Source of the DNA: Acanthornis magna
Taxonomy: Eukaryota; Chordata; Aves; Passeriformes; Acanthizidae
Assembly (NCBI GenBank): GCA_036785705.1
Contig: JAWUZG010000356.1
Coordinates: forward strand, 310,001 to 374,000
Length of the DNA: 64,000 nt
Direction of reading: 5' to 3'
Position 1 is the first letter of the stretch; each line of letters starts with the position of its first letter. This document shows, one piece after another, positions 8,777 to 64,000 of the stretch. The notes under the pieces were generated by a model. It worked only from the letters and a program-made list of their open reading frames with translations. It was not told the origin of the DNA and did not search any database. The translations under genes and the position numbers were made by a program.

Positions 8777-11700
8777 TTCTATCATAAAACTCCATTTTCA
8801 CTGACCCATAGATTTTTTTAATATGCACCAGCTCTCTCAGACAAGGCAGACGCAATTTTTCTTAACATATTTTTCAGCAAGACCAAGGAAAAAGAGTGAA
8901 TTATGATGAATTTTGTATAAAAAGGTACATCAGAAAATAATCTGAATTAAGACTAAATGCTTGGGTTTATATTTTTCTTACTTTTCTTTCTTATTTAACT
9001 GCTCTATCCTTTTTCCCTAGTCCTTGTCTAAAGATTGAAAAATTCATAGTAAAAGAAGTATGTGATCACAATCCGATCTTTACTGTGCAGACAAATGCAG
9101 AATTCCTTCAGTTTAATGACTCCACTGATTAAAAAACTCATAGGAAAGACTGGGAGGAACTGTAAAAGTTCAGTAAAATTAAGAAGTCCTGGGGGTTTTT
9201 GTTTTGTTTTGTTTTGTGAATATAATTACTGAATAAGCAGGTCCCAAGAAAATGTTGAGCTGAAACCAAATCCTTAATTTGGCCATTGAAGTTGAATTCA
9301 TAATTCCTCAGTGAAGTTATTTTTACTGCTTAAGGTGAAGAAGTTCTAAATATTACTGTAATATCACCGATTGTTAAACATGGAGGTAAAAGCTGAGTAT
9401 TTATGCTTTATGAGAAGGTAGAGGAGTGGTACAAGACATCATGACTATTGTTATATTTTTATTCCTTGACAGACAGCTACTAACACCTTGTACTATAAAA
9501 TATGGGCATATATGCCAAATAACATTGGTTACACATTGTTCTTTGTGGCATTTTCAACACATCCACTAAGTCTCTGTTCTACTCACCACTCTCTTATTGC
9601 CTGCAGAGAGCTTTGCCAATACTTGATGAGTCATCACATGATTTCTGAATTTAAGGAAAATAAATGCTCATTTGATATGAACAGGGCTGATGCCACTAAG
9701 AGGACTTTGGGGTTTGCAGGTTTATCACAAGTTGCATGTGTGTTACCTTCACAATAAGGCTTTAGGTGTTAGAAGGATGAAGAATGCAGTCTATTACTAC
9801 CTCTTAACAGATATCAGGACTATCCTGTTCACAGGGATGGATGTGTACTTGAGGCAGCCACCATGCTAATTACCACTTCCTCAACTTGGGAATCCCAGTT
9901 TGTTCATCAAACATGAAATATCAAAGTCAACAACAGTCTGGCATTTAGTATTTTCATATTCACATCTTCACTGTTACTGGTATGTTTTTTTAAGTCATAT
10001 TTTACGCATCCAGTTGCAAACACGAGTTGGTTTTCAGTGTAAGGACAGCTGGTAAGGGCAGATTGGGAATGCAGGAAAACAAGAACGAATTGCCCAGGCC
10101 TATCAGTTGTGCAGCAGAGGGATATAGGAATTGAAATGTCAGTGTTTTGGAGAGGGGGTGATCAATGTGAATTTGAAGCTTGTTTCTGCCTCACTTCAAG
10201 TGACAAAATATTCCTGACATCAGCTTTAGGAAAGAGACTTATATTACCTGTGAATTGGTTAGGGACTGCCTTGCAAGGAGAACTTTGTATATATTATCAA
10301 TTGCAGTATTTTTGAAACAAACACAACCAAGACTCATAATTTCACAGCAAGGACAAGAAAACAAATCTCAGTGGCAGGCTCACACTGAAGGAAAGGAACT
10401 AAAAGGTACCAAGCCTACCTCACTCCAAAGATAAAGGTTATAAGAGCAGCTCTTATACACCTCAGTGCAGAAGCTTGCATCCACTAAATGGCCATCTGCT
10501 GAGTAGAAAAAATAAATGGAAGTGTGAAGGGTTTTTCTTGGCATAGCATAATGTCAGATACCCATATCTGCAATTTAAGATTATACTACACTGGGAAGTA
10601 AAGCAAAAATAACCCTAAAAAATCTCCAGCCTTTTCCAGCTGATTGTTGCCTAGGATAATTCAATTACATATTATACATGTAGAATGAATTATTTAAAAA
10701 TCCAGTATTAAAAGACTTAAAAAGCAGCAATTCTTTTATTTCCCTGCTAAATGTAACCACCAAGACTTTGTCCTTCTGTAAGTAAAATCAGAAATATCTA
10801 AACTTTTGCCAGGGTGTGTGTCCTGTTGGATCTATATATTCACTAGAAACACAAGGGTGCTAGGGTAGGAATCACCAACCTGTTCTATGCATATCATTGA
10901 ATATTCCTTGTAGATGATAGCTGTGAGTCTTTTGTGAGTTGCTGTGCCCATCAGTACCACTGGATCCTCTAGGGCTTGTGCTCAGGCTGGAGAGATGTCC
11001 TGAAACACCTTGTGCACAGCCATGGATAAAGGCCCAAATATAGATTTGCACATAGAGTGCAAATCTCAAAAGCAGGGCAGAAACACAACCATGTATAAAG
11101 ATTTGATTTTATCAGTAACCTGGCAAGCAGAGTCTAGAAAAAGAAAGAGGCCTCTGTTCAGCATATTGCCAGCTTTTCTGTTGTGTCCTAAATTTTTTGT
11201 ACCAGTAACATTTCTCAAGGTGTTGGTAGGAATTTCTTCATGAGCAAGGCTGCAAGATATGGTTCTACTAATGCCAATATCTTTTGAGGTGTATGGCTGC
11301 TCCATTCGGTGGGGATTTGTACTGATGGGTAGCTCTCTAGAAGCCAGCTGAAATATGTACCCATATGAATTTATGTTGGTTGTAAAATTACATGACAGAA
11401 GTGCAGTATTTCCTGCGAATTATTGCTGTATGCCTTCCTAAGTCTCTCATCTTACATTACATTTCCTAAACTCAGGGCTAAAATGCTGTACTTTTTAGGC
11501 ATGTATTTCAAAGGTCAGCATGGAGTTATATCTCAATTCATATATAAGAAAGAAAAATAATAATTGCAAGGAAGTGTTACTATTCATTGGCTTTTCCATC
11601 AATCTCCTTCTTGTTTTTACTTCATTTGCAGCATATGATTTCAGGGCATGAAGCCAAAAAGTGGACTTTTGCATCAGCTAGTCTCACTTGCATATAGCAA

Positions 11701-13370
11701 CTCCTCAATTATCACTTAGCTTCTCCTTTGTTATGCTCTGTGCTCCTTAGTTTATAAGGATTACTTTCAGTAAGACAGTTAAACTCAATATAAATGTGCT
11801 TTGAGATTAATACCTTGCCTGTTAATTTGTTCCCAGCTTCTCATCTTCATGGTTAAAAATAGACATCAGGTAGGAATCTGAATGCACTTAGTTTTGGCTT
11901 TTAGCTGACTGTTCTTGCTGCCTACCAAGAGTGTTAAGTCATAACAGACATCTGGCTATATATAGAGAGGAAAAAACTGTAAATATTATTTGAATGCTAA
12001 GTGTACTTCAGGATTTTTAAGACATCTCACTATAAGCCTTATTAGTCTTTTATGTTCTTGCATTTCCGGGCTGGTATGACCTGAACAGAGAGAATGAGAT
12101 TGTCATTTCCCTTCTGCTAGGGGCGAATATAATTTATTTTTCTTCTTCTTATTGGACTCTCTTAACAGGAATTAAGGCTCATTGCTTTAAAGACACATGT
12201 GTTTAATAACAGGGATTTGATGTGTGCTGATCTCAGTGCCCATATGAAGTCTCCTGCAGATCAGAAGCAGTGCACAGCTGCAGATATTTGTGCACATGAA
12301 GTGCCTTAGAGGACCACTGCCTAACTGCATGCATTTTACATGCTTTTCTTCTGATATGGATCTAAAGCTGCCAACAACAGCGTGGGAGCAGCAAAACTTA
12401 AAAGGAAAGGAAGGAATGTTTCCAATAAAATTTGCCTCCCTTGCATAGTCTAAGTGACAGCAAGCATTCCAGCTTTGAGGGCTTCCAGTTGGCATTGTAT
12501 GAAAATATATTTCAAAGTGGGGAGAAAATATGAATATAAAGAGGAGGAAGAATGAACTGCGGCACCACTGGGCTTCATTCACAGCCAAGGCTGTGGAGAG
12601 GGAAGTGGTGACAACTTTGGAGTTATATGTGCGTAAGAGCAAAGTTTCCCACATGTGTTCTCATCAGTATCACAGTTTGGGGTGCTTGGTAATGGAGGTT
12701 TGGGCTTCAGCCAGTGGGAGGCAAGGCCAACCACAAAGTTCAGATCTGGATCCAAATGCCTGCGTGTTTGGGAGTAGTTATCCCTCTGGTTCGAGATTTT
12801 ACTCATCTTAGCCATGCACAAAAATAAGTAACAAACATGAAAAAAGATGATTTTCAAGTTGGAGCTGTAATACTTTAAGTATTTAAGCCCTTTAGCAGTT
12901 TTGATTAACCAGGGGATTACATGAGATTTTGTGTGCCATTTACTTTATAAATTTGCTAAAATGAAATATATGACAAATACTTTGTCATTTGTACTGCAGA
13001 TCAATCTTAAATGAGCCTGAAATGAGGTTTGGAGTAAATACCACTTGTGCCTCCGTATCAGATCTTGTGCTTTAGGGAGCACTTGGTTATCTGCAGGAGA
13101 GAGAGTGAGCTCCTACCATACTCTAAAACCAGCTCTTCAGCTGTACTAAGGGAGAAGAGATGGAGGCCACTGTGCTGGCAGTGACGTGGCAACCACTTGC
13201 CAATGTCACAAAGCCATGGGCAGAAATGGCTGCTGTGAGTTGCACTTGCTGTAGAACATTGCTGCATTTTGCTAAATATCCTCATTTTCTGCTTGGAAGA
13301 TCTGATTTTTTCCCCATTTCGGGGGACTCTGCTTCTACAAGCATAAATGTGGATATTTTGTGCTTCTACT

Positions 13371-13426
13371 TATTCTACACCCTGCAATTAGGTCATCTTC
13401 CTGACCTAATTGCATGGGGTAGAATA
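13371..13426. other. Strong imperfect hairpin (left arm copy)
   Basis: Two 25-nt arms, 13371-13395 and 13402-13426, flank a 6-nt loop (TCTTCC). They pair as TATTCTAC...GCAATTAGGTCA with TGACCTAATTGC...GTAGAATA, with two or three mismatches. Weaker pairing extends outward by about 12 nt on each side (CTTCT / AGAAG). The size resembles a small foldback element or a precursor-miRNA-like stem. Nothing in the sequence shows that it is transcribed. Confidence 0.7.
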
Positions 13427-13591
13427 TACAGAAGATGCTGGAGAGTGCTTAATTTATTTGGAGTTGAGGAGATGGCTTCAGTTGCCGGAGTTGGCACAGC
13501 AGCAGCCTACAACCATTGCTCTTGCACTTCTGTTGTGGCAGGAGCTCCTTGGTTCTTGGAGGTGCTAGAAAATCCCTGCTTCTTGTAAGAA

Positions 13592-13655
13592 GAATTCTTT
13601 GCTACAATTTCACCCCCTGAATTCTTTGCTACAATTTCACCCCCTGAAACCCCCT
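13592..13655. repeat. 27-bp tandem duplication plus 10-bp unit (left arm)
   Basis: A 27-bp unit starting GAATTCTTTGCTAC and ending CACCCCCT is present twice in tandem (13592-13618, 13619-13645), followed by a 10-bp unit GAAACCCCCT. Counted on the opposite strand as TTTCAGGGGG, the left arm has two 10-bp units and the right arm three. Confidence 0.85.
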
Positions 13656-16600
13656 GAAACTCTGCCTGAGTTGGGGTCAAAAGCACATCCAGCAGCTCCT
13701 TTGGAATAAGAGGCAATGGAATTGTGACAATCATTTTCCATTTTATTCCATTTCAACCACAGATAAAACTAACACCAATTTAATTAAACGATCTTGCATA
13801 TATTGATCAGATTCTGAAATTTGCATTTAATACTAATAGCTGCAGTGGCTCGTAACATATTATATAGAATAAACAGGTTTTGAAGAGATTATTTGCTATG
13901 TTGGTGGTGGTTTTGTAAGAAAAGAAGCTAGTGGCCCTTTCTAAAAGCTTTGTAACTCAGGGTCTCCTAAATAATAAATGTCTGCCTTGAAAATAAGGCT
14001 GTCCCATGTTCCCTTGTGTCCTGGTGGTTAGGTCACACGAAGCAAACAATTGAGCAAGCACACTGCATAAGTCTGACAATAGATAGGTCCTTGGGAGCAG
14101 TTGTTCACGCTTTAGCTGTTCTTTTAAAAGAGCATGATCATTCTAATGTAAACCAAAGGTGTTTCTTTTTTCCTGCTCATACAAAAAAAACCACATCTGA
14201 GTAGTCCTCATGCTCCTTCTAATTATATGAGCTACTGATTTTGGGTTAATGTTCTTCGTTCCAATTCAGACTGTTCCTGTTAAGATGCAGCTGGCGTCAA
14301 AATGATCCTATCTTATGACTACTACTGTATATGATATAATTAAGGAGTAATCCCTTTCAAAATTGGTCATTAGCATTAGCTAGCAATTTGCTAAATTTGC
14401 TTCAAAAGGTTAATGCTACAGCTGTGGTAAACAATAACTAATTTCATGGGGATTTATTGCTGTTAAAAAGTATAATCAGTTTCTAATAGCAATACTTAAT
14501 TTTTAAAAAAAACTGTAGACTGGTTGACTGCACTCGGATTGCTTACAATGGATATTTTCCTGGCAGATGGGTAATCCTCTGTTAGTAATTTCAATTCTGA
14601 GTTCTCAGATTTAGCACTTCAATTATGCATTCTTCGTTTGTTTTATTAATTGTTTGGTTATATTTGACAATGCTGAACTATACATGCATGCATAATATAT
14701 GACATATTATTCATGAAATTTTGCAATGTGACAGGCTCTGGTTACTCATGAGTAATACAGCAACCGTCACATAATAAATAAAGTAAAGTGACTTTATGTA
14801 AACTTGTTCTAAGTCCTTAAACATAATTATCTGAATTGTTGAAAGGAAATAAGTGTTGAAATTACTCTGATGCGTGATGTAGTAATTTGAGGAAATAAAT
14901 TCTTATGCAATAGGTAGAACTCTTCTAAAGATGTTTATGAAAGGAACAAATGAGATAAATGGAGATATTCTGTGCTTAATACCAAGGCTGAAGGTGGCTG
15001 AGATTGGTGTGCTAACCCTTGCTGTAAATTTCTGCTGCTTTATTAACTGCAGCAGAACTGGATATAATTACATAGGCATAGAATTTAGCCGGGAGGGAAT
15101 ATTGCTACTGTATGGAGCTGAAGTTCTTGCAGGATAGGAAACACGTGACTGATGAATTCTGTGAGTTGCTGGAGAGCCTCATTCATGTCTCTGGTTTCAT
15201 GTCTCTTCTGGTCATAAAACCCAATAACCTCAGCTCCCTCTCAGTGCCTTCAGATGCAAATATTCTGCCATGGAAATCTAAAGTAAACCTTTAGTTTGAA
15301 TCAAACAAAATGAAAACAGTTTGCTGAGTTGCGGAGTCTCATTTCAGGTGACTTTGAGGTGTGTGTGGCAGGTGTGTGCTGCTCTGGTGCCTCGTGGGAG
15401 CTGTGTGTGGGTGCGTTCTTCCCTCATTCTTCACTCCTCCTGTACTGCCTGACCCCCAGATCTCTGTGTGCAGAGATATTCTGAATTTGGCAAAAGGCTG
15501 AGTCTGACCACAGAGTTTGCAGGTGACGGAGAAGGTGAAGTGACAGTCGCTGGAACTACAGCTCCCACAGTTCTCCAGGGCTTGAGGATTGCAGGTTTTG
15601 CACTGAAGTTGTCTTTTTTGAAAAGTAACATTACATAAGGACTCAGGGAAATATATTCCAGTGCTTGCATTAAATGTTTTGAGGCTTTTGTTCCAAAGTA
15701 CTTTTGTTTGTATTGAAAGTACCAGGAAAACACTTATATTTTCAAAATTTAAAAAAAAAAAAAAAAAAAATCCAGAACATTTCATTCTGTAAAGCATTTT
15801 GATGTATAAAAACTCCACAATTTTTCCTTAGGCTGCATGATATTACACTAGTCTTGTTTTTAGTGAAATATTTTTCAGTGATTTCTCACATTATATAGGG
15901 GTTCTGTATACAAAGAAGGAGAAATAATGGTTGCAGATAATTTTTTTCGCTTACTGAATTCCATAAAATGCATACTCACCTTCTTTGCACTTACAGAGTA
16001 AAATTATTTTTAAAATTTCCAAATATTTTGTTAAATCTTCCTTCTTGTTGCTTTTTTCTTCCCCTCTAAAGCCCATATTAGCATTCCTACTTTAGGACTT
16101 TTACCAATTGTTTAAATTACAATACAATTTTGAGATAATTCAACCTCTAAATAGCAGAATTTAGTAGCAAATTATCACCTTAAGTGAAATCACAGAAATC
16201 ATTGATGCAATAATCCATTACACTTTTGTTACCAGTTTCTTGTTGGTTGTTATTCACCTGCATTACAGTCAGTAACTTCACAGGAGAAAAGCAGACCTCA
16301 GTAGAAAGAACATCAACCAACCTGGTCAAGACTACCACCTCCAAATTTACAGTTTTTATTATATTTTTATATTTCTATTATATTCATATGCTCTGGACAG
16401 TTCCTCCAGCTTCATTTAGACAGGGTCAATAGAACCTAACCGTTCTTTTCTGGGTTTCTAGAGAGAATTAGAAAATAGTATCTGTTCATTTCCTTGCAAA
16501 TCTCAACATTTTATCAAGACAGGAATGCATTACTGCAAAGAGTTCATTTGTGAAGCAGGTTCCACAGATTAGATTTAAAGATTTAAATAGGTATTTTTTT

Positions 16601-18183
16601 TGTGATTGTCATTTTTGTTTCCCTTTTGAATTGTCTTTAAAGACAAACTGGCAGCCTTGTAAATTAAATAGAAATTGTTATGTCTGAAATTCATGTGCAT
16701 TCATTAATATTGGAAGTTAATGTTATAAAAATCTTCAGCCGTATCATAATCTCTTTAAGTGCTACTAATGCATACTCATACTTTTCTTATGTTGTCTTCT
16801 GTCACTAAAAAGTAGATTCTGCTTTCATTTACTGTAGCTACAAACTACTGACAGCATAGCTCATTTCCGAGCATGTAAAACTGTAATTAAGATTGTGGCA
16901 TGCAGTTTTGCCTCCCTGGTGCACTACAAAAAGAAAACTGACTTTCCCCAAAATTTCTTATCTGCAAAAGGAATTTTGGGACACTTTAAGAGAGTGCATT
17001 CAGTGACTTTTTATAATCTTTATTTCCTACTCCATTACAGAATTGCATAGACTAATAGCACTATTTTTTTTAAGCAGAACTAGATTCAGCTTGTGAGCGG
17101 TAAACCACAATTCAGTAGAAAAAGGTCTATGTGAAAATTCATTGCAAACATAAACAAGAATATCTCTGTTGACTGCACTGGCCTTGTGCATTTCAGGAGA
17201 CAGAGTAGTCTAAGAAGTCAGTACCTCAGTCAGGACAGATGGATGTATTTTACTCTCTTTTAGTCTCGTTCTATCAGCTGTGTGATTCAGCTGGCATCTG
17301 TGCTTTGGTTTTCATGCTACAGATCCTGTTATATCAGTTCCAGTGACACAGAAGTAGTAATTCATCTGTATGCTGACTTTCCTGACACAGGTATGTTTGA
17401 GATCATGGAGGTGTTATTTTAAAGAGCACATTGTTACATTGGTCATGGAGTTACACAGCAGTGTCTGTTTTACAGAGAAGTGTGTATGAATGAAATGCAC
17501 TGTTACTATTGAATAATTAAGCTTCATTGTGGCAATTTTTACGTATGAAGAGTAGGAGAGGAGATCTGTCAGTAGCATCTGAATAATAAGTCTGAGATGT
17601 ACCAAATGCCTTGTGGAAATGTGGTTCCTAGAGCTGTTCTCCCATGCTGAATTCTAAATATAGGCTTCTGAGATGGAGTAAAATCAGCATTCAAAGCATA
17701 TTTGTGTTAGGGCTGTTAAAGGATTTACTTCCCATTCACTACCAGCATTTTTGCTCTCACATTTCTCATCCGTTTACCTACAGACTTACCACAGGGCTTC
17801 ATTGTGTGCCCTCTTCTGTCACACAAATGTGCTGGCTAGCAGAAAACCAACCATTACTGTATTGATTTTCTTTCATGCCTGCAAGTCATGAAGGTTTTGT
17901 GATTAATATAAATCAATATTTGTGGTAGAGCAGAAAGTGATTTGCGTAACTGCTGATGAAAAAGAGAACACTGAAACTTTCATTCAACATCATTTTTATC
18001 TGTAAATATTTGTCTTAATAGGATTTCCACTGTACCAGGCTTCATACTGTGAAGCAGGAAGTTTTTGGTGTGATATTGGCAGAATTTCCTCAGCTGTGAC
18101 CCCCTACAATTTTAACACAATTTTAAAAAGAGCTAGAATCTAAGCTAGATACCCTGCTTCCTTATTACTTGTTAGAGGAGAGA

Positions 18184-18390
18184 TGGGATGGGATGGGATG
18201 GGATAGGGATAGAATAGAATAGAATAGAATAGAATAGAATAGAATAGAATAGAATAGAATAGAATAGAATAGAATAGAATAGAATAGAATAGATTATTTC
18301 AGTTGAAGTGCAATAATCACCTAGTCCACCCACCTGACCAAGGACCAACCAAGTCAAAGCTTGTACGTAAGGGCCTTGTCGAAATGCCTC
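18184..18390 (-). mobile_element. CR1 LINE 3' end with (AGAAT)n tail, part 1
   Basis: Read on the minus strand this is the end of an avian CR1 retrotransposon. The 3' region includes the typical block read on the plus strand as TTTCAGTTG...CACCTAGTCCA...CTGACCA. It ends in a pentanucleotide tail, here (AGAAT)n at 18211-18295 followed by GGGAT units. CR1 elements end in short repeats rather than poly-A. The element is interrupted at 18390 by an LTR and resumes at 19784. It is 5'-truncated, as most CR1 copies are. Confidence 0.85.
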
Positions 18391-19783
18391 TGTGGTAGTT
18401 TTGCCTGGCCCAGTTTTTGCCAGTGGATAGGGTGGGGTACAAAGATGGCTCCTGCATGTCCTGAGTAAAGATTCTGGACATTTCTCCACCATGTCCAGCA
18501 GAGCCAATCTCTGATGGCTCTGAAGATGATGGACATGCTGCTGGCCAAACCTGGGCCAATTAGAGATGTTAGTTACGCCTCTGTGAAAACATATTTAAGA
18601 AGAAATCAAAACAAGGTAAGCACGCACTTCTTTGTAGCCAGGGAAGGAGGAGGAGGAGGTAAAAATATGTGAGGGAGAACAACATGGAGGCACCAAGGTC
18701 AGTGGAGAAGGTGGGGGAGGAGATGCTCCAGGCGCCGGAGCTGAAAACCCTCTGCCAGCCGTGGTGAAGACCATTGGGGGAGCAGGTGGTCCCCCTGCAG
18801 CCCATGGGGTCCAGGGGGATGCAGAGAACCCCCCACAGCCTGTGGGGAGGTGCCCACGCCAGAGGAGCAGGTGGAAGCCTGCAGGAAGCTGTGATCCAGT
18901 GGGAGTCCCAGAGACTGAGAGTTGCAAAGGCCTTGCAGGAGAGAGAAAGGCCTTGCTCCCGGGATGGAAACAGCCTGGCCTCGGCTTGGAAGTCTGCAGC
19001 CTGGAGAGAATCTCGGACAGCAGCAATCGGGCGGGGCTGCTCGTGAGATTGGACCCACGCCAAAGAAGTTCGCAGAGGACTGTCTCTCGTGGGAGGGATC
19101 CCCATGGCTAAGTAGAGGATTCTTTTCCCCTGATGGACTGACCCTGACCAAAGGAAAACCCCCATGCCCTGCCCCCACCCCGGAGCTGTTGGTTAGAAGG
19201 AAGGAGGGAGGGGGTGAGCTGAGAAACGGCCTTAATAGGGAGAGGGGTGAGCAGAAAAACAGTGTTTGTAGCAGAAGAATTGTGGCGTTGGACTGACTAA
19301 GAAAAGCCACATATCTTGCCCCAACCCGGATCTGCTGGTTGAATGGAAGGAGGGGGCGAATAGAGAAACAGTGTCTGTAGCAGAAGAATTGTGATGGACT
19401 GACTTAAAGAAAAAACCCCACACCCTGCCCCTGCCTGGGAGTTGTTGGTTAGTTAGAAAGGTGGGAGGGGGTGAGCTGGGAAGCGGTGCCTTAAGAGGGA
19501 AGGGGGGTCAGTGAAGAAACGGTGTCTTGAGAGCTTATTTTTATCTCTGATTTATCCTCCGACTCTGTTAGACTAATAAATCACTTTTTTTTTGCAACTT
19601 TAAGTTTCCCCGCCTGCTTTTGCCCTGAATCTAGTGCGTCCCCTTATCAGTGGTCTTATCTCAACTCATAAGTCCAGTGTTTTGTGTTAATTTTCCCTCT
19701 CCTCTGCATAGCTGCAGCAGGAGAGAGCATAGAGAGCAAACGTCGTAGGTGCCTGGCATTTAGCCAGGGTCAAACCCACGACA
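18391..19783 (+). mobile_element. Solo LTR, ERVL-type, 1393 bp, inserted in CR1
   Basis: The element begins TGTGGTAG and ends CCCACGACA, giving the TG...CA termini of an LTR. The host 5-mer GCCTC occurs on both sides (18386-18390 and 19784-19788), and removing the insert restores a continuous CR1 reading. Plus-strand promoter features are CCAAT at 18556-18560 and the TATA-like ATATTTAAG at 18591-18599. A polyadenylation signal AATAAA lies at 19575-19580, about 200 bp before the end. The 5-bp duplication fits ERVL-class integration. The layout resembles LTRs of passerine ERVL families (recall, not searched). No internal retroviral genes are present. Open frames of up to 203 codons on its minus strand are GC-rich by-products. 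Confidence 0.85.
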
Positions 19784-19930
19784 GCCTCTTAAACCCTGAC
19801 AGGCTTGGGACCTCACTACCTCTCTAGGAAAGGCTGTTCCAGTGTTTGACCCCCCTTTCAGTTAAAAAATGCTTCCTACAGTCCAGTCTAAAGCTCCAGA
19901 TGAAGGGCATTAAATTGTTCCTTGAAAACT
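19784..19930 (-). mobile_element. CR1 LINE 3' region, part 2
   Basis: This continues the CR1 split by the LTR at 18391-19783. Plus-strand blocks CTGACAGGCTTGGG, CTGTTCCAGTGTTTGACC and AAATGCTTCCTACAGTCCAG are the familiar CR1 3'-UTR series, seen here in reverse orientation. The 5' boundary near 19930 is approximate, because similarity fades. Confidence 0.8.
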
Positions 19931-25217: not shown

Positions 25218-25335
25218 GTGCAGTTTGGATGTGAAATGCAGGGTGCACAGCAGCTCCGCGTTCTCCGGCACCTCGCTCCGGCTTCTAGCCGCCTAAGACG
25301 CACCTTCGCCGGCTAGGCGTTCTTAGCTCGCAAAG

Positions 25336-48814: not shown

Positions 48815-48867
<53 letters not shown>

Positions 48868-49634: not shown

Positions 49635-49645
49635 GCTAAGCCTGG

Positions 49646-49913
49646 GGCAGGCATAGCATCATGCAGGCTCATCTCCAAAGGATGTTTCTCACTGCTACGA
49701 AGGTCTGGCAGCACCGGGACACGGGGACAATGTGCAGAGAGAGAGGGAGCGAGAGAGAGAGAGAAACACTTTGCCCCAGCTTTAGTCTTACAAAACTCGT
49801 GCAGTTGCAGCTCCCGGAGAAGGTAGCGTGCGTGGAGAATGTGTTCTCCACATAGCCTCTTCTGTTTGCATCTTTGCCGGACCGCAGAGAGCCGCCCGCT
49901 TCTTTCTCACGCT
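49646..49913 (-). repeat. 270-bp repeat unit, single right-arm copy
   Basis: Its inner end matches left copy B (ACCTTCGTAGC variant, CATCATGCAGG) and its outer end matches left copy A (flanked by the CTCTCGCCAGCC sequence). It is either the ancestral single copy or the product of recombination between A and B. Confidence 0.85.
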
Positions 49914-50865: not shown

Positions 50866-51389
50866 GAGAGGAAAAGAAAGAGAGAAAGAAAGAGAGAAAG
50901 AAAGAAAGAAAGAGAGGAAGGAAGGAAGGAAGGAAGGAAGGAAGGAAGGAAGGAAGGAAGGAAGGAAGGAAGGAAGGAAGGAAGGAAGGAAGGAAGGAAG
51001 GAAGGAAGGAAGGAAGGAAGGAAAAGAAAGAATGAAAGAGAGAGAGAAAGAAAGAAAGGGAGAAGGATAGAGAGAAAGAGAGAAAGAGAGGAATTAAGAA
51101 AGAAAGAGGGGAAGAGAGAAAGAAAGAGAGAGAGAGAAAGAGAGAAAGAGGGAAAGAAAAAAGGAGAGAAAGATAGAAAGAGAGATTAAGAGAGTGATAA
51201 AGATTGAAAGAGAGAAAGAGAGAATGAGGGAAAGAAAGAAAGAAAGGGAAAGATAGAGAGAAAGAGAGAGATAAAGAAAGCAAGAAAGAGGAAAAGAATG
51301 AAAGAAAAAAGAGAGAGAGAGACAAAGAGAGAGAGAGAGAAAGAAAGAAAGTGAGAAAGAAAAAGAGAAAGAGAGAAAGAAAGGAAGGT
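50866..51389. repeat. Polypurine tract (GAAA)n-(GGAA)n, right arm
   Basis: About 0.52 kb of nearly pure purine, matching 22779-24000. It has one GGAA block (about 50915-51020) and GAAA/GA repeats. The GGGA block and the interrupting GGGTGCGG blocks of the left arm are absent. Confidence 0.95.
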
Positions 51390-54225
51390 GCTAAGGCTGA
51401 ACGTGTCAATGGAAGCCTCAAAACACAGAGGACTCCAAGTGGTCAAAAACATCCAAGACATAGGTTCAGGCCTGGCCTCAAGCCTTCCAGAGAGTCCGCG
51501 TACAACCCCGGCGGAGAGAGACAACAGGAGGAAATATTTAGGAAATACTGCGTGGCAGGCCATAGCAAGTGAAGTCTCGGGCAAGAAAAATGGCGAGATG
51601 AGAAAGCAGCTTACCTTGCCAAGGTATCGAACAGCTTGGAAGTTCCACTTTGCCGAAACTCTGCACATTCGTCATCTTCTCCACACGCACCTGCCCACCT
51701 CTTCCTGCCTGGAGACTGAAGCTGTGCTCCATGGAAAAACAGGCACTTTACCAACCAAGTCCAGAGCACAGTTCCAAGTCCCGATGACCCTCACTGAAGG
51801 TGAGGTTACGGCCAGAGGACCCGCAATTCACTGCTCCAGAGTGAAGAACACCTGTGCTTCTGAAACAGCTAGAAGACAAAAGCGGATACAAATCAAGATG
51901 GGGCCATTTCAATGGTTCCCTTATCCGTGCCTGTTATCTGCACAGCTGCTAACCCCGACTCAGATTTGGCCTCCAATGAGTCAATGTCAATATGTCAATG
52001 TCAATACTTCAGGCATGCTGCCAATTATTATTCAAACACCATCCCTGAAATGGATTTTCTTCCTGCAAAAGAACAATAGAGTGTTTCCTAAAATGAGACA
52101 AAGTGCTCAGTGCCGTTGTGGTTGGGGAGAAGCGAGAAAATGTTAAATTATCTTATTTTGTGCATGAAAGAAAGAAACATTTCTCATAAGAGGGTACTTT
52201 ACAAGGTGGAGCAAATTGTGTCATCTTCAAACACTGACTTTTGCAGAGGCCTCAGATATGAGAGGTGGATACTTTTGTCCCTTGAAGTGTGATTTATAAG
52301 AAATGTTGTGTTTGGCAGGCTGTTATAACATGTCATGGTGCTATTAAATGCAAGTCAGAAGTTCTTTATAATTCATTAGCATTCCTTCTTGATTGGAAAC
52401 TACGCAGCCACCTGCCCCTGCTGTTATTCAGAAGTAGGAGACAAGGTAGTCATTCAGAAAGTACCAGACTGACAAGCAGTTGGCAGGGATGAATACCAGT
52501 GTCTCAAAAAACAAGTACAAAACAAGAGTAATGAAACTACACATGATTTACTGGTCAAACTAGTGATGTAAAGTGCTGGGACTTATGCAAACCTTGTTTC
52601 TGCATCAGATAACCAGTGACTCATGTCAATATCAGGCAAATTCCTTGGTTCTGGGACACTGAGTTTGACAGCAATCAAGCACAAGCAAAATTGTTGCCAC
52701 ACTAGTTGTTACAACACTCATACAAATGACACAACACTCACACAAATGACATAAATACAAGAACCACCAGAGAAAACTCTTTAGCATCAAAAGGAAATCT
52801 CTATCTAGTGTAACATATAATTTGCACATTCTACAATTCTCATCAGTGTATGCAATGTTAACTTCCAAGGATTCACCTGCATTTCTCAGCCTTAATTCTA
52901 CCAAAAAATACAAGCAGTCTGACTTCTATGCATCCAGCTTGTGCCAAACATCCATTTCTAATACCAAGAAACAAAGATTCAAAAAGAGTTCTTTGATACA
53001 AACATCTGCATAAAGTTGATCAAAATTTAATCACTTATTTTTTCCCTTTCTCAGTTCATGCTGTAGACAGGCTGGATGGAAGCATTCCCCCTTTTGATTT
53101 CTTTACTTTGAAAATTGTATATCTCAACACTGAAATGGGGATTTTCTACAGTGTGTTACAATACTGATGTCTGTTTAGGACTGTACATCTTTTATCGACA
53201 ACAAACTGCCAAAGTCTATGACTGTGATCACTGACATTTCACATACTCAGGTCCAAAGACAGGCGGTGGCAGTCAGATTAGACCATTTGCTATGCTGTGT
53301 TCCTTAGAAATATAAAAACATATGTAGCCCCGAAAGCATAGCTAATTTAGCTGTAATACAGTTTTAAGTAATTTTAAACTTTAAAGGGATACAGAACCAC
53401 CATTTACTTCAGTACACTCAGTTACTAGCCCATATCAGAGACCTGTTTTCCCTGAGCTACTCACATACTTACAATGTGAAGCTTTTAAAAGGTGGATTTG
53501 TTGATACAAATCCAGTCATAACAGTGAGAAAAATGAAGTATTGCAAAACTGTTTTCTAATATATATATATATTTTACAACATGTGTGGCAGGCCAGTTTT
53601 CTGTGCAGAATTTGTACAAACAGCTGAAAAAAGTGTGGAAGAGGATCATGCTCTGGATTTCTTCCATTTTGAAAACCAGTAACTAAGTTTTCAAAATCCA
53701 TACACATCCTTTTATGCCTTAAAATGATTATATACCAAGTCCACAGCAATAGCTTATTTTTTTCTTGAAAAAAAGAGCACAGGAAGAATATAATTTCTAG
53801 CTGCAACTTGACCTATGAATCACATCCATAATATCTACAGACTTTATGTGAAAATCATTTCCCCATCACTTGCATAATACTCTTATACTATACTTGTATG
53901 CATGTAGCATATGAACACATACCTTTAATAGATTAAGTTATTAATTACAATTTCAAAGTTTACAGTTGTTGTTTTTTGATCTCTTTATAGAGGGTTGGTA
54001 AAAAAGAGACTGAAATGAATCCCGCATGAGGAAAGCAAAAGGGAAATACTGGTGAACTTATATAAAATAGGTGTATAAATACTTATCTGCTCTCCTCCTG
54101 CTATTACAGAGAAGAGCAGATAAGCTATATAGCTAAGACTGCAATTTTCTAGCCTGCAAAAAGCCCAGCATTATCACTATGCACACTCTTTCACCTCGCA
54201 CCTGTACACTATGTACAACTCTTTC
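51390..54225. other. Arm interval (right), no gene recognised
   Basis: Mirror of 19931-22778. A 252-codon frame (51388-52146) exists only here because small differences remove stops present in the left copy. It has no recognisable domain and is not supported as a gene. Confidence 0.65.
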
Positions 54226-54372
54226 AGTTTTCAAGGAACAATTTAATGCCCTTCATCTGGAGCTTTAGACTGGACTGTAGCAAGCATTTTTTAACTGAAA
54301 GGGGGGTCAAACACTGGAACAGCCTTTCCTAGAGAGGTAGTGAGGTCCCAAGCCTGTCAGGGTTTAAGAGGC
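54226..54372 (+). mobile_element. CR1 LINE 3' region, part 2 (right arm)
   Basis: Mirror of 19784-19930. It ends at the GAGGC target duplication (54368-54372). Confidence 0.8.
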
Positions 54373-55763
54373 TGTCGTGGGTTTGACCCTGGCTAAATGC
54401 CAGGCACCTACGACGTTTGCTCTCTATGCTCTCTCCTGCTGCAGCTATGCAGAGGAGAGGGAAAATTAACACAAAACACTGGACTTATGAGTTGAGATAA
54501 GACCACTGATAAGGGGACGCACTAGATTCAGGGCAAAAGCAGGCGGGGAAACTTAAAGTTGCAAAAAAAAGTGATTTATTAGTCTAACAGAGTCGGAGGA
54601 TAAATCAGAGATAAAAATAAGCTCTCAAGACACCGTTTCTTCACTGACCCCCCTTCCCTCTTAAGGCAGCGCTTCCCAGCTCACCCCCTCCCACCTTTCT
54701 AACTAACCAACAACTCCCGGGCAGGGGCAGGGTGTGGGGTTTTTTCTTTAAGTCAGTCCATCACAATTCTTCTGCTACAGACACTGTTTCTCTATTCGCC
54801 CCCTCCTTCCATTCAACCAGCAGATCCGGGTTGGGGCAAGATATGTGGCTTTTCTTAGTCAGTCCAACGCCACAATTCTTCTGCTACAAACACTGTTGTT
54901 CTGCTCACCCCTCTCCCTATTAAGGCCATTTCTCAGCTCACCCCCTCCCTCCTTCCTTCTAACCAACAGCTCCGGGGTGGGGGCAGGGCATGGGGGTTTT
55001 CCTTTGGTCAGGGTCAGTCCATCAGGGGAAAAGAATCCTCTACTTAGCCATGGGGATCCCTCCCACGAGAGACAGTCCTCTGCGAACTTCTTTGGCGTGG
55101 GTCCAATCTCACGAGCAGCCCCGCCCGATTGCTGCTGTCCGAGATTCTCTCCAGGCTGCAGACTTCCAAGCTGAGGCCAGGCTGTTTCCATCCCGGGAGC
55201 AAGGCCTTTCTCTCTCCTGCAAGGCTTTTGCAACTCTCAGTCTCTGGGACTCCCACTGGATCACAGCTTCCTGCAGGCTTCCACCTGCTCCTCTGGCGTG
55301 GGCACCTCCCCACAGGCTGTGGGGGGTTCTCTGCATCCCCCTGGACCCCATGGGCTGCAGGGGGACCACCTGCTCCCCCATGGTCTTCACCACGGCTGGC
55401 AGAGGGTTTTCAGCTCCGGCGCCTGGAGCATCTCCTCCCCCACCTTCTCCACTGACCTTGGTGCCTCCATGTTGTTCTCCCTCACATATTTTTACCTCCT
55501 TCTCCTCCTTCCCTGGCTACAAAGAAGTGCGTGCTTACCTTGCTTTGATTTCTTCTTAAATATGTTTTCACAGAGGCGTAACTAACATCTCTAATTGGCC
55601 CAGGTTTGGCCAGCAGCATGTCCATCATCTTCAGAGCCATCAGAGATTGGCTCTGCTGGACATGGTGGAGAAATGTCCAGAATCTTTACTCAGGACATGC
55701 AGGAGCCATCTTTGTACCCCACCCTATCCACTGGCAAAAACTGGGCCAGGCAAAACTACCACA
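54373..55763 (-). mobile_element. Solo LTR, ERVL-type (right arm)
   Basis: Mirror of 18391-19783, 2 bp shorter. The flanking GAGGC is present on both sides (54368-54372, 55764-55768), so both arms carry the same insertion event. Confidence 0.85.
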
Positions 55764-55980
55764 GAGGCATTTTGACAAGGCCCTTACGTACAAGCTTTGA
55801 CTTGGTTGGTCCTTGGTCAGGTGGGTGGACTAGGTGATTATTGCACTTCAACTGAAATAATCTATTGTATTGTATTGTATTGTATTGTATTGTATTGTAT
55901 TGTATTGTATTGTATTCTATTCTATTCTATTCTATTCTATTCTATTCTATCCCTATCCCATCCTATCCCATCCCATCTCT
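55764..55980 (+). mobile_element. CR1 LINE 3' end with (TGTAT)n(TCTAT)n tail (right arm)
   Basis: Mirror of 18184-18390, but the tail differs. Where the left arm has a uniform AGAAT array (ATTCT on the other strand), this copy has about ten TGTAT units followed by TCTAT units. Confidence 0.85.
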
Positions 55981-58900
55981 CCTCTAACAAGTAATAAGGA
56001 AGCAGGGTATCTAGCTTAGATTCTAGCTCTTTTTAAAATTGTGTTAAAATTGTAGGGGGTCACAGCTGAGGAAATTCTGCCAATATCACACCAAAAACTT
56101 CCTGCTTCACAGTATGAAGCCTGGTACAGTGGAAATCCTATTAAGACAAATATTTACAGATAAAAATGATGTTGAATGAAAGTTTCAGTGTTCTCTTTTT
56201 CATCAGCAGTTACGCAAATCACTTTCTGCTCTACCACAAATATTGATTTATATTAATCACAAAACCTTCATGACTTGCAGGCATGAAAGAAAATCAATAC
56301 AGTAATGGTTGGTTTTCTGCTAGCCAGCACATTTGTGTGACAGAAGAGGGCACACAATGAAGCCCTGTGGTAAGTCTGTAGGTAAACGGATGAGAAATGT
56401 GAGAGCAAAAATGCTGGTAGTGAATGGGAAGTAAATCCTTTAACAGCCCTAACACAAATATGCTTTGAATGCTGATTTTACTCCATCTCAGAAGCCTATA
56501 TTTAGAATTCAGCATGGGAGAACAGCTCTAGGAACCACATTTCCACAAGGCATTTGGTACATCTCAGACTTATTATTCAGATGCTACTGACAGATCTCCT
56601 GTCCTACTCTTCATACGTAAAAATTGCCACAATGAAGCTTAATTATTCAGTAGTAACAGTGCATTTCATTCATACACACTTCTCTGTAAAACAGACACTG
56701 CTGTGTAACTCCATGACCAATGTAACAATGTGCTCTTTAAAATAACACCTCCATGATCTCAAACATACCTGTGTCAGAAAAGTCAGCATACAGATGAATT
56801 ACTACTTCTGTGTCACTGGAACTGATATAACAGGATCTGTAGCATGAAAACCAAAGCACAGATGCCAGCTGAATCACACAGCTGATGGAATGAGACTAAA
56901 AGAGAGTAAAATACATCCATCTGTCCTGACTGAGGTACTGACTTCTTAGACTACTCTGTCTCCTGAAATGCACAAGGCCAGTGCAGTCAACAGAGATATT
57001 CTTGTTTATGTTTGCAATGAATTTTCACATAGACCTTTTTCTACTGAATTGTGGTTTACCGCTCACAAGCTGAATCTAGTTCTGCTTAAAAAAAATAGTG
57101 CTATTAGTCTATGCAATTCTGTAATGGAGTAGGAAATAAAGATTATAAAAAGTCACTGAATGCACTCTCTTAAAGTGTCCCAAAATTCCTTTTGCAGATA
57201 AGAAATTCTGGGGAAAGTCAGTTTTCTTTTTGTAGTGCACCAGGGAGGCAAAACTGCATGCCACAATCTTAATTACAGTTTTACATGCTCGGAAATGAGC
57301 TATGCTGTCAGTAGTTTGTAGCTACAGTAAATGAAAGCAGAATCTACTTTTTAGTGACAGAAGACAACATAAGAAAAGTATGAGTATGCATTAGTAGCAC
57401 TTAAAGAGATTATGATACGGCTGAAGATTTTTATAACATTAACTTCCAATATTAATGAATGCACATGAATTTCAGACATAACAATTTCTATTTAATTTAC
57501 AAGGCTGCCAGTTTGTCTTTAAAGACAATTCAAAAGGGAAACAAAAATGACAATCACAAAAAAAATACCTATTTAAATCTTTAAATCTAATCTGTGGAAC
57601 CTGCTTCACAAATGAACTCTTTGCAGTAATGCATTCCTGTCTTGATAAAATGTTGAGATTTGCAAGGAAATGAACAGATACTATTTTCTAATTCTCTCTA
57701 GAAACCCAGAAAAGAACGGTTAGGTTCTATTGACCCTGTCTAAATGAAGCTGGAGGAACTGTCCAGAGCATATGAATATAATATAAATATAAAAATATAA
57801 TAAAAACTGTAAATTTGGAGGTGGTAGTCTTGACCAGGTTGGTTGATGTTCTTTCTACTGAGGTCTGCTTTTCTCCTGTGAAGTTACTGACTGTAATGCA
57901 GGTGAATAACAACCAACAAGAAACTGGTAACAAAAGTGTAATGGATTATTGCATCAATGATTTCTGTGATTTCACTTAAGGTGATAATTTGCTACTAAAT
58001 TCTGCTATTTAGAGGTTGAATTATCTCAAAATTGTATTGTAATTTAAACAATTGGTAAAAGTCCTAAAGTAGGAATGCTAATATGGGCTTTAGAGGGGAA
58101 GAAAAAAGCAACAAGAAGGAAGATTTAACAAAATATTTGGAAATTTTAAAAATAATTTTACTCTGTAAGTGCAAAGAAGGTGAGTATGCATTTTATGGAA
58201 TTCAGTAAGCGAAAAAATTTATCTGCAACCATTATTTCTCCTTCTTTGTATACAGAACCCCTATATAATGTGAGAAATCACTGAAAAATATTTCACTAAA
58301 AACAAGACTAGTGTAATATCATGCAGCCTAAGGAAAAATTGTGGAGTTTTTATACATCAAAATGCTTTACAGAATGAAATGTTCTGGATTTTTTTTATTT
58401 TTTTTTTTAATTTTGAAAATATAAGTGTTTTCCTGGTACTTTCAATACAAACAAAAGTACTTTGGAACAAAAGCCTCAAAACATTTAATGCAAGCACTGG
58501 AATATATTTCCCTGAGTCCTTATGTAATGTTACTTTTCAAAAAAGACAACTTCAGTGCAAAACCTGCAATCCTCAAGCCCTGGAGAACTGTGGGAGCTGT
58601 AGTTCCAGCGACTGTCACTTCACCTTCTCCGTCACCTGCAAACTCTGTGGTCAGACTCAGCCTTTTGCCAAATTCAGAATATCTCTGCACACAGAGATCT
58701 GGGGGTCAGGCAGTACAGGAGGGGTGAAGAATGAGGGAAGAACGCACCCACACACAGCTCCCACGAGGCACCAGAGCAGCACACACCTGCCACACACACC
58801 TCAAAGTCACCTGAAATGAGACTCCGCAACTCAGCAAACTGTTTTCATTTTGTTTGATTCAAACTAAAGGTTTACTTTAGATTTCCATGGCAGAATATTT

Positions 58901-60498
58901 GCATCTGAAGGCACTGAGAGGGAGCTGAGGTTATTGGGTTTTATGACCAGAAGAGACATGAAACCAGAGACATGAATGAGGCTCTCCAGCAACTCACAGA
59001 ATTCATCAGTCACGTGTTTCCTATCCTGCAAGAACTTCAGCTCCACACAGTAGCAATATTCCCTCCCGGCTAAATTCTATGCCTATGTAATTATATCCAG
59101 TTCTGCTGCAGTTAATAAAGCGGCAGAAATTTACAGCAAGGGTTAGCACACCAATCTCAGCCACCTTCAGCCTTGGTATTAAGCACAGAATATCTCCATT
59201 TATCTCATTTGTTCCTTTCATAAACATCTTTAGAAGAGTTCTACCTATTGCATAAGAATTTATTTCCTCAAATTACTACATCACGCATCAGAGTAATTTC
59301 AACACTTATTTCCTTTCAACAATTCAGATAATTATGTTTAAGGACTTAGAACAAGCTTACATAAAGTCACTTTACTTTATTTATTATGTGACGGTTGCTG
59401 TATTACTCATGAGTAACCAGAGCCTGTCACATTGCAAAATTTCATGAATAATATGTCATATATTATGCATGCATGTATAGTTCAGCATTGTCAAATATAA
59501 CCAAACAATTAATAAAACAAACGAAGAATGCATAATTGAAGTGCTAAATCTGAGAACTCAGAATTGAAATTACTAACAGAGGATTACCCATCTGCCAGGA
59601 AAACATCCATTGTAAGCAATCCGAGTGCAGTCAACCAGTCTACAGTTTTTTTTAAAAATTAAGTATTGCTATTAGAAACTGATTATACTTTTTAACAGCA
59701 ATAAATCCCCATGAAATTAGTTATTGTTTACCACAGCTGTAGCATTAACCTTTTGAAGCAAATTTAGCAAATTGCTAGCTAATGCTAATGACCAATTTTG
59801 AAAGGGATTACTCCTTAATTATATCATATACAGTAGTAGTCATAAGATAGGATCATTTTGACGCCAGCTGCATCTTAACAGGAACAGTCTGAATTGGAAC
59901 GAAGAACATTAACCCAAAATCAGTAGCTCATATAATTAGAAGGAGCATGAGGACTACTCAGATGTGGTTTTTTTTGTATGAGCAGGAAAAAAGAAACACC
60001 TTTGGTTTACATTAGAATGATCATGCTCTTTTAAAAGAACAGCTAAAGCGTGAACAACTGCTCCCAAGGACCTATCTATTGTCAGACTTATGCAGTGTGC
60101 TTGCTCAATTGTTTGCTTCGTGTGACCTAACCACCAGGACACAAGGGAACATGGGACAGCCTTATTTTCAAGGCAGACATTTATTATTTAGGAGACCCTG
60201 AGTTACAAAGCTTTTAGAAAGGGCCACTAGCTTCTTTTCTTACAAAACCACCACCAACATAGCAAATAATCTCTTCAAAACCTGTTTATTCTATATAATA
60301 TGTTACGAGCCACTGCAGCTATTAGTATTAAATGCAAATTTCAGAATCTGATCAATATATGCAAGATCGTTTAATTAAATTGGTGTTAGTTTTATCTGTG
60401 GTTGAAATGGAATAAAATGGAAAATGATTGTCACAATTCCATTGCCTCTTATTCCAAAGGAGCTGCTGGATGTGCTTTTGACCCCAACTCAGGCAGAG

Positions 60499-60576
60499 TT
60501 TCAGGGGGTTTCAGGGGGTTTCAGGGGGTGAAATTGTAGCAAAGAATTCAGGGGGTGAAATTGTAGCAAAGAATTC
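60499..60576. repeat. Tandem TTTCAGGGGG units plus 27-bp duplication (right arm)
   Basis: Three TTTCAGGGGG units, against two in the left arm, then two 27-bp units. This accounts for the shift of the coordinate sum from 74158 to 74168. Confidence 0.85.
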
Positions 60577-60741
60577 TTCTTACAAGAAGCAGGGATTTTC
60601 TAGCACCTCCAAGAACCAAGGAGCTCCTGCCACAACAGAAGTGCAAGAGCAATGGTTGTAGGCTGCTGCTGTGCCAACTCCGGCAACTGAAGCCATCTCC
60701 TCAACTCCAAATAAATTAAGCACTCTCCAGCATCTTCTGTA

Positions 60742-60797
60742 TATTCTACCCCATGCAATTAGGTCAGGAAGATGACCTAATTGCAGGGTGTAGAATA
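60742..60797. other. Strong imperfect hairpin (right arm copy)
   Basis: Mirror of 13371-13426, unchanged as far as I compared. Confidence 0.7.
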
Positions 60798-63700
60798 AGT
60801 AGAAGCACAAAATGTCCACATTTATGCTTGTAGAAGCAGAGTCCCCCGAAATGGGGAAAAAATCAGATCTTCCAAGCAGAAAATGAGGATATTTAGCAAA
60901 ATGCAGCAATGTTCTACAGCAAGTGCAACTCACAGCAGCCATTTCTGCCCATGGCTTTGTGACATTGGCAAGTGGTTGCCACGTCACTGCCAGCACAGTG
61001 GCCTCCATCTCTTCTCCCTTAGTACAGCTGAAGAGCTGGTTTTAGAGTATGGTAGGAGCTCACTCTCTCTCCTGCAGATAACCAAGTGCTCCCTAAAGCA
61101 CAAGATCTGATATGGAGGCACAAGTGGTATTTACTCCAAACCTCATTTCAGGCTCATTTAAGATTGATCTGCAGTACAAATGACAAAGTATTTGTCATAT
61201 ATTTCATTCTAGCAAATTTATAAAGTAAATGGCACACAAAATCTCATGTAATCCCCTGGTTAATCAAAACTGCTAAAGGGCTTAAATACTTAAAGTATTA
61301 CAGCTCCAACTTGAAAATCATCTTTTTTCATGTTTGTTACTTATTTTTGTGCATGGCTAAGATGAGTAAAATCTCGAACCAGAGGGATAACTACTCCCAA
61401 ACACGCAGGCATTTGGATCCAGATCTGAACTTTGTGGTTGGCCTTGCCTCCCACTGGCTGAAGCCCAAACCTCCATTACCAAGCACCCCAAACTGTGATA
61501 CTGATGAGAACACATGTGGGAAACTTTGCTCTTACGCACATATAACTCCAAAGTTGTCACCACTTCCCTCTCCACAGCCTTGGCTGTGAATGAAGCCCAG
61601 TGGTGCCGCAGTTCATTCTTCCTCCTCTTTATATTCATATTTTCTCCCCACTTTGAAATATATTTTCATACAATGCCAACTGGAAGCCCTCAAAGCTGGA
61701 ATGCTTGCTGTCACTTAGACTATGCAAGGGAGGCAAATTTTATTGGAAACATTCCTTCCTTTCCTTTTAAGTTTTGCTGCTCCCACGCTGTTGTTGGCAG
61801 CTTTAGATCCATATCAGAAGAAAAGCATGTAAAATGCATGCAGTTAGGCAGTGGTCCTCTAAGGCACTTCATGTGCACAAATATCTGCAGCTGTGCACTG
61901 CTTCTGATCTGCAGGAGACTTCATATGGGCACTGAGATCAGCACACATCAAATCCCTGTTATTAAACACATGTGTCTTTAAAGCAATGAGCCTTAATTCC
62001 TGTTAAGAGAGTCCAATAATAAGAAGAAAAATAAATTATATTCGCCCCTAGCAGAAGGGAAATGATAATCTCATTCTCTCTGTTCAGGTCATACCAGCCT
62101 GGAAATGCAAGAACATAAAAGACTAATAAGGCTTATAGTGAGATGTCTTAAAAATCCTGAAGTACACTTAGCATTCAAATAATATTTACAGTTTTTTCCT
62201 CTCTATATATAGCCAGATGTCTGTTATGACTTAACACTCTTGGTAGGCAGCAAGAACAGTCAGCTAAAAGCCAAAACTAAGTGCATTCAGATTCCTACCT
62301 GATGTCTATTTTTAACCATGAAGATGAGAAGCTGGGAACAAATTAACAGGCAAGGTATTAATCTCAAAGCACATTTATATTGAGTTTAACTGTCTTACTG
62401 AAAGTAATCCTTATAAACTAAGGAGCACAGAGCATAACAAAGGAGAAGCTAAGTGATAATTGAGGAGTTGCTATATGCAAGTGAGACTAGCTGACGCAAA
62501 AGTCCACTTTGGCTTCATGCCCTGAAATCATATGCTGCAAATGAAGTAAAAACACGAAGGAGATTGATGGAAAAGCCAATGAATAGTAACACTTCCTTGC
62601 AATTATTATTTTTCTTTCTTATATATGAATTGAGATATAACTCCATGCTGACCTTTGAAATACATGCCTAAAAAGTACAGCATTTTAGCCCTGAGTTTAG
62701 GAAATGTAATGTAAGATGAGAGACTTAGGAAGGCATACAGCAATAATTCGCAGGAAATACTGCACTTCTGTCATGTAATTTTACAACCAACATAAATTCA
62801 TATGGGTACATATTTCAGCTGGCTTCTAGAGAGCTACCCATCAGTACAAATCCCCACTGAATGGAGCAGCCATACACCTCAAAAGATATTGGCATTAGTA
62901 GAACCATATCTTGCAGCCTTGCTCATGCAGAAATTCCTACCAACACCTTGAGAAATGTTACTGGTACAAAAAATTTAGGACACAACAGAAAAGCTGGCAA
63001 TATGCTGAACAGAGGCCTCTTTCTTTTTCTAGACTCTGCTTGCCAGGTTACTGATAAAATCAAATCTTTATACATGGTTGTGTTTCTGCCCTGCTTTTGA
63101 GATTTGCACTCTATGTGCAAATCTATATTTGGGCCTTTATCCATGGCTGTGCACAAGGTGTTTCAGGACATCTCTCCAGCCTGAGCACAAGCCCTAGAGG
63201 ATCCAGTGGTACTGATGGGCACAGCAACTCACAAAAGACTCACAGCTATCATCTACAAGGAATATTCAATGATATGCATAGAACAGGTTGGTGATTCCTA
63301 CCCTAGCACCCTTGTGTTTCTAGTGAATATATAGATCCAACAGGACACACACCCTGGCAAAAGTTTAGATATTTCTGATTTTACTTACAGAAGGACAAAG
63401 TCTTGGTGGTTACATTTAGCAGGGAAATAAAAGAATTGCTGCTTTTTAAGTCTTTTAATACTGGATTTTTAAATAATTCATTCTACATGTATAATATGTA
63501 ATTGAATTATCCTAGGCAACAATCAGCTGGAAAAGGCTGGAGATTTTTTAGGGTTATTTTTGCTTTACTTCCCAGTGTAGTATAATCTTAAATTGCAGAT
63601 ATGGGTATCTGACATTATACTATGCCAAGAAAAACCCTTCACACTTCCATTTATTTTTTCTACTCAGCAGATGGCCATTTAGTGGATGCAAGCTTCTGCA

Positions 63701-64000
63701 CTGAGGTGTATAAGAGCTGCTCTTATAACCTTTATCTTTGGAGTGAGGTAGGCTTGGTACCTTTTAGTTACTTTCCTTCAGTGTGAGCCTGCCACTGAGA
63801 TTTGTTTTCTTGTCCTTGCTGTGAAATTATGAGTCTTGGTTGTGTTTGTTTCAAAAATACTGCAATTGATAATATATACAAAGTTCTCCTTGCAAGGCAG
63901 TCCCTAACCAATTCACAGGTAATATAAGTCTCTTTCCTAAAGCTGATGTCAGGAATATTTTGTCACTTGAAGTGAGGCAGAGACAAGCTTCAAATTCACA

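Follow-up and report, generated by a model that had tools for sequence, protein, structure and literature searches.

The 64,000-nucleotide stretch of DNA analysed in this study (hereafter the window, corresponding to positions 310001-374000 of contig C356, so that the window start is contig position 310001) probably represents the centre of one palindromic amplicon, which on the sequence evidence would be repeated in tandem every ~425 kb in the genome of a bird. The palindrome was observed on three contigs, all sampled with full arms, and a tandem period, two recurring arm types and the number of copies of a 40-mer from the spacer were all recorded directly. C356 comprises 781,135 bases and is one of the 1,515 contigs of an assembly that totals 1,482,288,618 bases; the window covers approximately one-seventh of one repeat unit. 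The unit is proposed to consist of a left arm of at least ~168 kb, a spacer of 10.9 kb (spacer A), a right arm, and a connecting segment of no more than ~84 kb before the next unit.

Structure of the palindrome in contig C356

Self-BLAST of the window identified 10166-32485 and 43378-64000 as inverted copies and confirmed the large near-identical palindrome reported in the first-pass annotation. Positions 10166-23253 paired with 64000-50911 (13,118 columns, 98.95% identity), 23799-25216 with 51067-49646 (96.57%), and 26221-32485 with 49634-43378 (6,265 columns, 99.82%, with 3 mismatches and 8 gap positions). A chance origin of the arm matches is impossible because of their length. The inner edges were exact, as had been claimed, with 32485/43378 as the last base common to both arms and differing bases thereafter. 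The pairing had also been described as unbroken to the window end, and this was incorrect, as breaks were present at ~23254-23798 and ~25217-26220. The first break is located in a (CTTT/CCTT)n array, recorded in the tandem-repeat rows for both arms, and the second in a rearranged block of approximately 1 kb composed of short internal repeats. This block includes a direct repeat (24947-25216/25332-25601, 95.9%) and an inverted repeat (24971-25473/25600-26097, 93.7%). Position 10166, given as the start of the palindrome, is only the mirror of the window end, and the partner of window positions 1-10165 lies on the contig outside the window. The features of the window are listed in Table 1.

Table 1. 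Features of the window (window coordinates unless marked as contig positions)
Feature	Position	Strand	Details
Left arm, window part	1..32485	+	Extends leftward beyond the window, at least as far as contig 230001
1.39-kb repeat, left-arm copy	18390..19783	.	98.4% identical to the extra left-arm copy (contig 230440-231831)
CTTT/CCTT microsatellite, left arm	22779..23970	+	Longer than its right-arm counterpart; interrupts the alignment
Short direct and inverted internal repeats	24947..26097	.	Rearranged relative to the right arm
Inner left arm	26221..32485	+	Nearly identical to 43378-49634 (99.82%)
Spacer A, 10,892 bp, unmirrored	32486..43377	.	Edges from self-BLAST and base comparison
ORF, weak retroviral-type aspartyl protease match	32853..33425	-	PF13975, E 0.0097, 16.9 bits
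194-aa ORF, homologues in bird genomes	34444..35025	-	14 proteins with E <= 0.001
Right arm, window part, inverted copy	43378..64000	-	Extends right to at least contig 466908
Inner right arm	43378..49634	-	Partner of 26221-32485
AAAG microsatellite, right-arm counterpart	50873..51387	+	Tandem-repeat scan
1.39-kb repeat, right-arm copy	54373..55764	.	98.1%

On the contig, the mirror was followed almost continuously, with small breaks, from 342485 outward to 230001 and from 353378 outward to 466908, extending ~80 kb to the left and ~93 kb to the right of the window. Within this range, contig positions 305535-333253 paired with 388623-360911 at 99.25%. Two larger arm-specific inserts interrupted the mirror: an extra copy of the 1.39-kb repeat, present in the left arm only (contig 230440-231831), and a 4.28-kb insert, present in the right arm only (contig 434265-438547) and flanked by 265-bp direct repeats. 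The contig therefore harbours a large inverted repeat with near-identical arms, which were read almost continuously over at least 112 kb and have an identity of 98.1-99.8% by block.

Further outward, a 1000-base sample at contig position 200001 paired with 496751 with 2 mismatches, and position 516001 paired in inverted orientation with 600206 over 215 positions (94%), the match stopping at the end of the compared piece. The latter pairing is between the right arm and the left arm of the unit that follows, and by the period it stands for approximately contig position 180 kb. These two pairings put the length of each arm at no less than ~168 kb. A sample at 540001 had no mirror in the segment 575501-580000, and the sequence separating adjacent palindromes, ~84 kb at the most, is not, or not wholly, mirrored. 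This sequence contains a 2.1-kb CCT-rich array and a CpG-rich promoter-like segment (within C356:575501-580000), which is reminiscent of an MHC promoter and may serve as a lead.

Recurrence of the unit and number of copies

A 2-kb piece of the spacer was searched against the assembly; the best 40 of 1,298 candidates were 99-100% identical and were distributed over 37 contigs, including C356. The spacer edges and both arms were present on contig C398. Samples of 1.5 kb were taken from C398 and C555 at distances of 30, 60 and 100 kb to either side of the centre, and all 12 matched both C356 arms at 98.4-99.9%.

Direct copies of the unit were also present within single contigs. In C356, positions 660001, 700001 and 740001 corresponded to 239592, 279588 and 319663 (a shift of ~420 kb), and positions 1001 and 40001 corresponded to 424258 and 467570. 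In contig C43, direct copies were located at +424 kb and at +843 to +846 kb, and positions 820001, 1120001 and 1270001 corresponded to C356 395971, 274300 and 427289. Nine of the 16 samples used on C356 and C43 matched at 97.8% or more. Five fell in parts of the unit without reference sequence, including one with a weak match of 77%, and the remaining two (C356 775001 and C43 1196001) matched nothing where the inner arm or spacer was expected. These two samples indicate that some units have another centre, in agreement with the gap between the C43 spacers at 774959 and 1627726. Long units in head-to-tail succession at a regular period, as expected of a tandem amplicon array or macrosatellite, were found.

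A 40-mer from the spacer (window 41600-41639) had 359 exact copies in the whole assembly (177 forward and 182 reverse), and the reversed pattern, used as a control, had none on either strand. Spacing and orientation were analysed for 100 of these copies, whose places are spread over 42 contigs. Among the 58 spacings between neighbours obtained from these 100 places, 35 were 412-470 kb (median 425 kb), 8 were 830-880 kb, which is about two periods, and 15 fitted neither one nor two periods. Neighbours 300-520 kb apart in the same set had the same orientation in 18 cases and opposite orientations in 20. Point samples on six contigs fell in arm sequence in five, namely C8, C135 and C105 (40/40 bases each), C45 (79/80) and C34 (77/80); the sample on C64 did not.

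Spacer A carries retroelement-like ORFs. The match of the first to PF13975 (16.9 bits) is below the cut-off of 28.2 bits, and the second, at 34444..35025, is presumably derived from a retroelement. Eight of the 14 homologues of the latter ORF had a species name and all eight were from birds, which supports the avian origin that had been suggested in the first-pass annotation. The content of these ORFs, and the many spacer copies at 99-100%, would fit a spacer that is a dispersed retroelement, with 359 genome-wide insertions and a separate palindrome in C356. This reading is nevertheless highly improbable, as the arms accompanied the spacer wherever this was examined (in C398 and C555, and as an arm piece of 96% identity in C34) and the spacer spacings were periodic; dispersal of a retroelement alone was disfavoured for the first of these reasons.

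By extrapolation, and assuming one unit per spacer place, 359 units of 425 kb amount to ~153 Mb, or about one-tenth of the assembly. The assembly may include both haplotypes; the figure of ~150 Mb would be halved if the haplotypes were assembled apart, and would be an underestimate if many units lacked spacer A. The array could be real and its size and random orientation inflated by haplotypes, by collapsed or duplicated graph paths and by arbitrary orientation on the part of the assembler. We consider this unlikely. The inner arms are near-identical over 6.3 kb, so that short reads could not fix the orientation, and the assembled genome is larger than is usual for birds. However, unit lengths varied (412-470 kb) and unit sequences differed by up to ~1.6%, which shows that the units are not plain duplicates of a single path.

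Arm divergence, arm types and orientation of the spacer

The divergence between the arms of C356 was stepped, with 0-0.08% in the 6.3 kb adjoining the spacer versus ~1.1% in the outer arms. In 4-kb bins, divergence was 0.28-0.38% at contig 308-328 kb, 0.68% in the 328-kb bin and 2.5% in the short 332-kb bin beside the microsatellite; it was 0.56% at 304 kb and 0.78-1.56% from there outward to 244 kb. Within the inner 6.3 kb, four substitutions separated C356 from C398, each of them common to both arms of its locus, and there were in addition four single-arm substitutions and one difference in the length of an AG repeat. The inner arms of C398 differed by one base in 6,842.

The first-pass annotation had attributed the likeness of the arms to arm-to-arm conversion. 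Homogenisation of the arms was supported for their innermost part, given the low divergence there relative to the outer arms and the four substitutions common to both arms, but not for window positions 18.9-22.8 kb. Identity of the left arm at that location was 99.5-99.8% with the two C398 arms and 99.17% with its own partner, which indicates that homogenisation stops short of this region. Conversion beside the spacer would be expected to yield substitutions shared within a locus, and a recent common origin may be an alternative source of them.

Arm types were scored as L-like or R-like at the sites where the two C356 arms differ. The left arm of C555 was L-like at 35 of 39 sites and its right arm R-like at 21 of 30, and in C398 the left arm was R-like at 25 of 31 sites and the right arm L-like at 20 of 31. 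Two arm types thus recurred across units on other contigs, with exceptions. Contrary or mixed types were recorded for the right arm of C555 at 30 kb (3:1 L-like), the right arm of C398 at 100 kb (8:7), C43 1270001 (4:3) and C356 1001, which is in the right arm and was L-like at its single informative site. The recurrence of two arm classes suggests that the split between arm types predates the spread of the units.

These observations also bear on a possible assembly artefact, a head-to-head join between two haplotypes from a single locus that would make the arms alleles. The divergence of the outer arms was fairly even at ~1.1%, as heterozygosity would be, and the fragmentation into 1,515 contigs attests to the difficulty of assembling the region. 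Such a join is very unlikely, since the same centre and arms recurred on C398 and C555, the unit was in tandem within C356 and C43, and the two arm types recurred across units. A haplotype fold-back was accordingly disfavoured, the palindrome being present on other contigs with matching arm types instead of at a single location.

The direction of the spacer relative to the arm types in C356 was opposite to that in C398 and C555. Together with the even strand count of the 40-mer, this points to repeated inversion of the spacer by exchange between the arms, although the choice of orientation by the assembler could be an alternative explanation. In the preferred reading of a tandem palindromic amplicon, an inverted duplication would have occurred first and its arms would then have diverged by ~1%. 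Tandem amplification of the whole unit would have followed, with unequal exchange as its probable mechanism. Within a unit, crossing-over of one arm with the other would invert the region of the spacer, and the innermost arms would be kept alike by gene conversion close to it.

Gene content, location and relation to known systems

The palindromes of ampliconic sex-chromosome regions have genes in their arms, which are typically expressed in testis. The sequence of the array was read through for ~244 of the ~425 kb around the centre, with small samples elsewhere. No convincing gene was identified by Pfam search of 10 ORFs in the window, nor by Pfam search of 112 ORFs (91 aa or longer) in one arm plus the spacer, hand-picked from the 150 longest of 438 ORFs of at least 65 aa; the latter search returned three families with single members (E 0.0041-0.0097). 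Rfam (at gathering score) and tRNA scans of the window had no hits. In sampled pieces of the array, no tblastn match was obtained for HINT1 (E limit 1), or for the PAK kinase domain, PIM1, SPIN1 and NAPA (E limit 0.1).

The first-pass annotation had pointed to the W, the Z or a germline-restricted chromosome; these and an autosome are all candidate locations. No array of the zebra finch dph6 type was seen: tblastn of the sampled pieces detected nothing and a genome search for PF01902 (DPH6), which is an exon search, located a single place (C34:9884870-9884983). Amplified dph6 is not a feature of all germline-restricted chromosomes. Contigs C34 (15.1 Mb) and C45 (15.0 Mb) harbour array sequence near their right ends, which hints that the array is linked with ordinary chromosome sequence. 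On C45, two spacer places are separated by 464 kb. On C34, two spacer 40-mers in opposite orientation lie 14.8 kb from each other, in addition to the arm piece of 96% identity, and for these reasons this contig may be an edge of the array or an older relative.

The array resembles the PAK3L arrays of zebra finch chromosome Z, which comprise 12 units (median 268 kb) and 35 units (median 59 kb) and are unresolved by ordinary assembly (PMC13060935), in that long near-identical units occur in tandem in a bird. It differs in that the unit here is a palindrome of ~425 kb with ~360 spacer copies, palindromes being unmentioned in the accessible part of that source, and in that the sampled pieces contain no PAK kinase match. 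Large inverted repeats are also shared with the duck W, where 38 palindromes of 15.2-345.5 kb are described as repeat-rich and without robustly expressed genes; those are dispersed and total 3.74 Mb (PMC7787181), whereas here one palindrome type is in tandem, amounting to ~150 Mb by extrapolation. Hundreds of copies of one sequence are likewise described on the germline-restricted chromosome of the zebra finch, where dph6 has an estimated 308 copies, and contigs from FISH in that study matched a dph6 intron, which is invisible to an exon search (PMC6884545). Here DPH6 was found at a single place, and the accessible part of that paper does not mention palindromes. The palindromes of primate Y chromosomes are similar in having long inverted repeats with a spacer and arm-to-arm conversion. 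Their arms are reported to be more than 99.9% alike (PMC3723533), whereas only the innermost arms are near 99.9% here and the outer arms differ by ~1.1%.

The present case joins a tandem array with a palindrome, at a larger scale than the bird systems compared. No palindromic array of such size in birds was found in searches of open-licence papers, which is weak evidence of absence. Large palindromes have mostly been discussed as scattered devices of sex chromosomes. Hundreds of tandem palindromes would provide many parallel copies in one genome, on which it could be measured directly how far arm-to-arm conversion extends, how often the spacer inverts and how variants spread along an array. 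The large size of the assembly and its fragmentation would also be explained in good part by such an array.

A wider reading, which we put forward tentatively and hold to be somewhat doubtful, is that about one-tenth of the assembly consists of ~360 tandem palindromes of ~425 kb with freely flipping centres. These might make up the greater part of a germline-restricted chromosome or another accessory chromosome, or else a block as large as a chromosome within a sex chromosome or an ordinary one; pairing of the arms would be the means of upkeep. If this is true, arm pairing corrects and reshuffles the units in a block that needs no recombination with a homologue.

Insertions in the arms

The 4.28-kb insert of the right arm was flanked by direct repeats of 265 bp, which were 99.2% alike; as bounds of the insert, these repeats would be arranged as in an LTR element. 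Copies related to the 1.39-kb repeat of the left arm occupied both arms (window 18390-19783 and 54373-55764). The empty site for the left-arm insertion presented a 5-base overlap, which looks like a target duplication.

Features located outside the window (C356, the contig of the window; L064, its piece 575501-580000; C34, another contig of the assembly)
Feature	Contig position	L064 position
CpG-rich promoter-like segment	C356:578140-578370	2640-2870
CCT-rich trinucleotide array	C356:575501-577606	1-2106
Two spacer 40-mers, opposite orientation, 14.8 kb apart	C34:15060556-15075368	
4.28-kb insert, right arm only	C356:434265-438547	
1.39-kb GC-richer repeat, inserted in left arm only	C356:230440-231831	

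Sequence between neighbouring palindromes

The CCT-rich array spanned at least 2.1 kb, and each of its strands contained long open frames. In the CpG-rich segment, TGACGTCA, an ATTGG box and GC boxes were present upstream of an ATG, and we presume a resemblance of this segment to an MHC class I promoter plus leader.

Unit edges and centres

The C34 pair of spacer 40-mers was found close to the end of this 15.1-Mb contig, and might possibly represent the edge of a unit or its ancestral form. As neither of two predicted neighbour-unit centres (C356:775001-775500 and, on another contig, C43:1196001-1196500; both outside the window) matched spacer A, the 10.9-kb palindrome spacer, or the inner arm, a second type of unit centre may exist.
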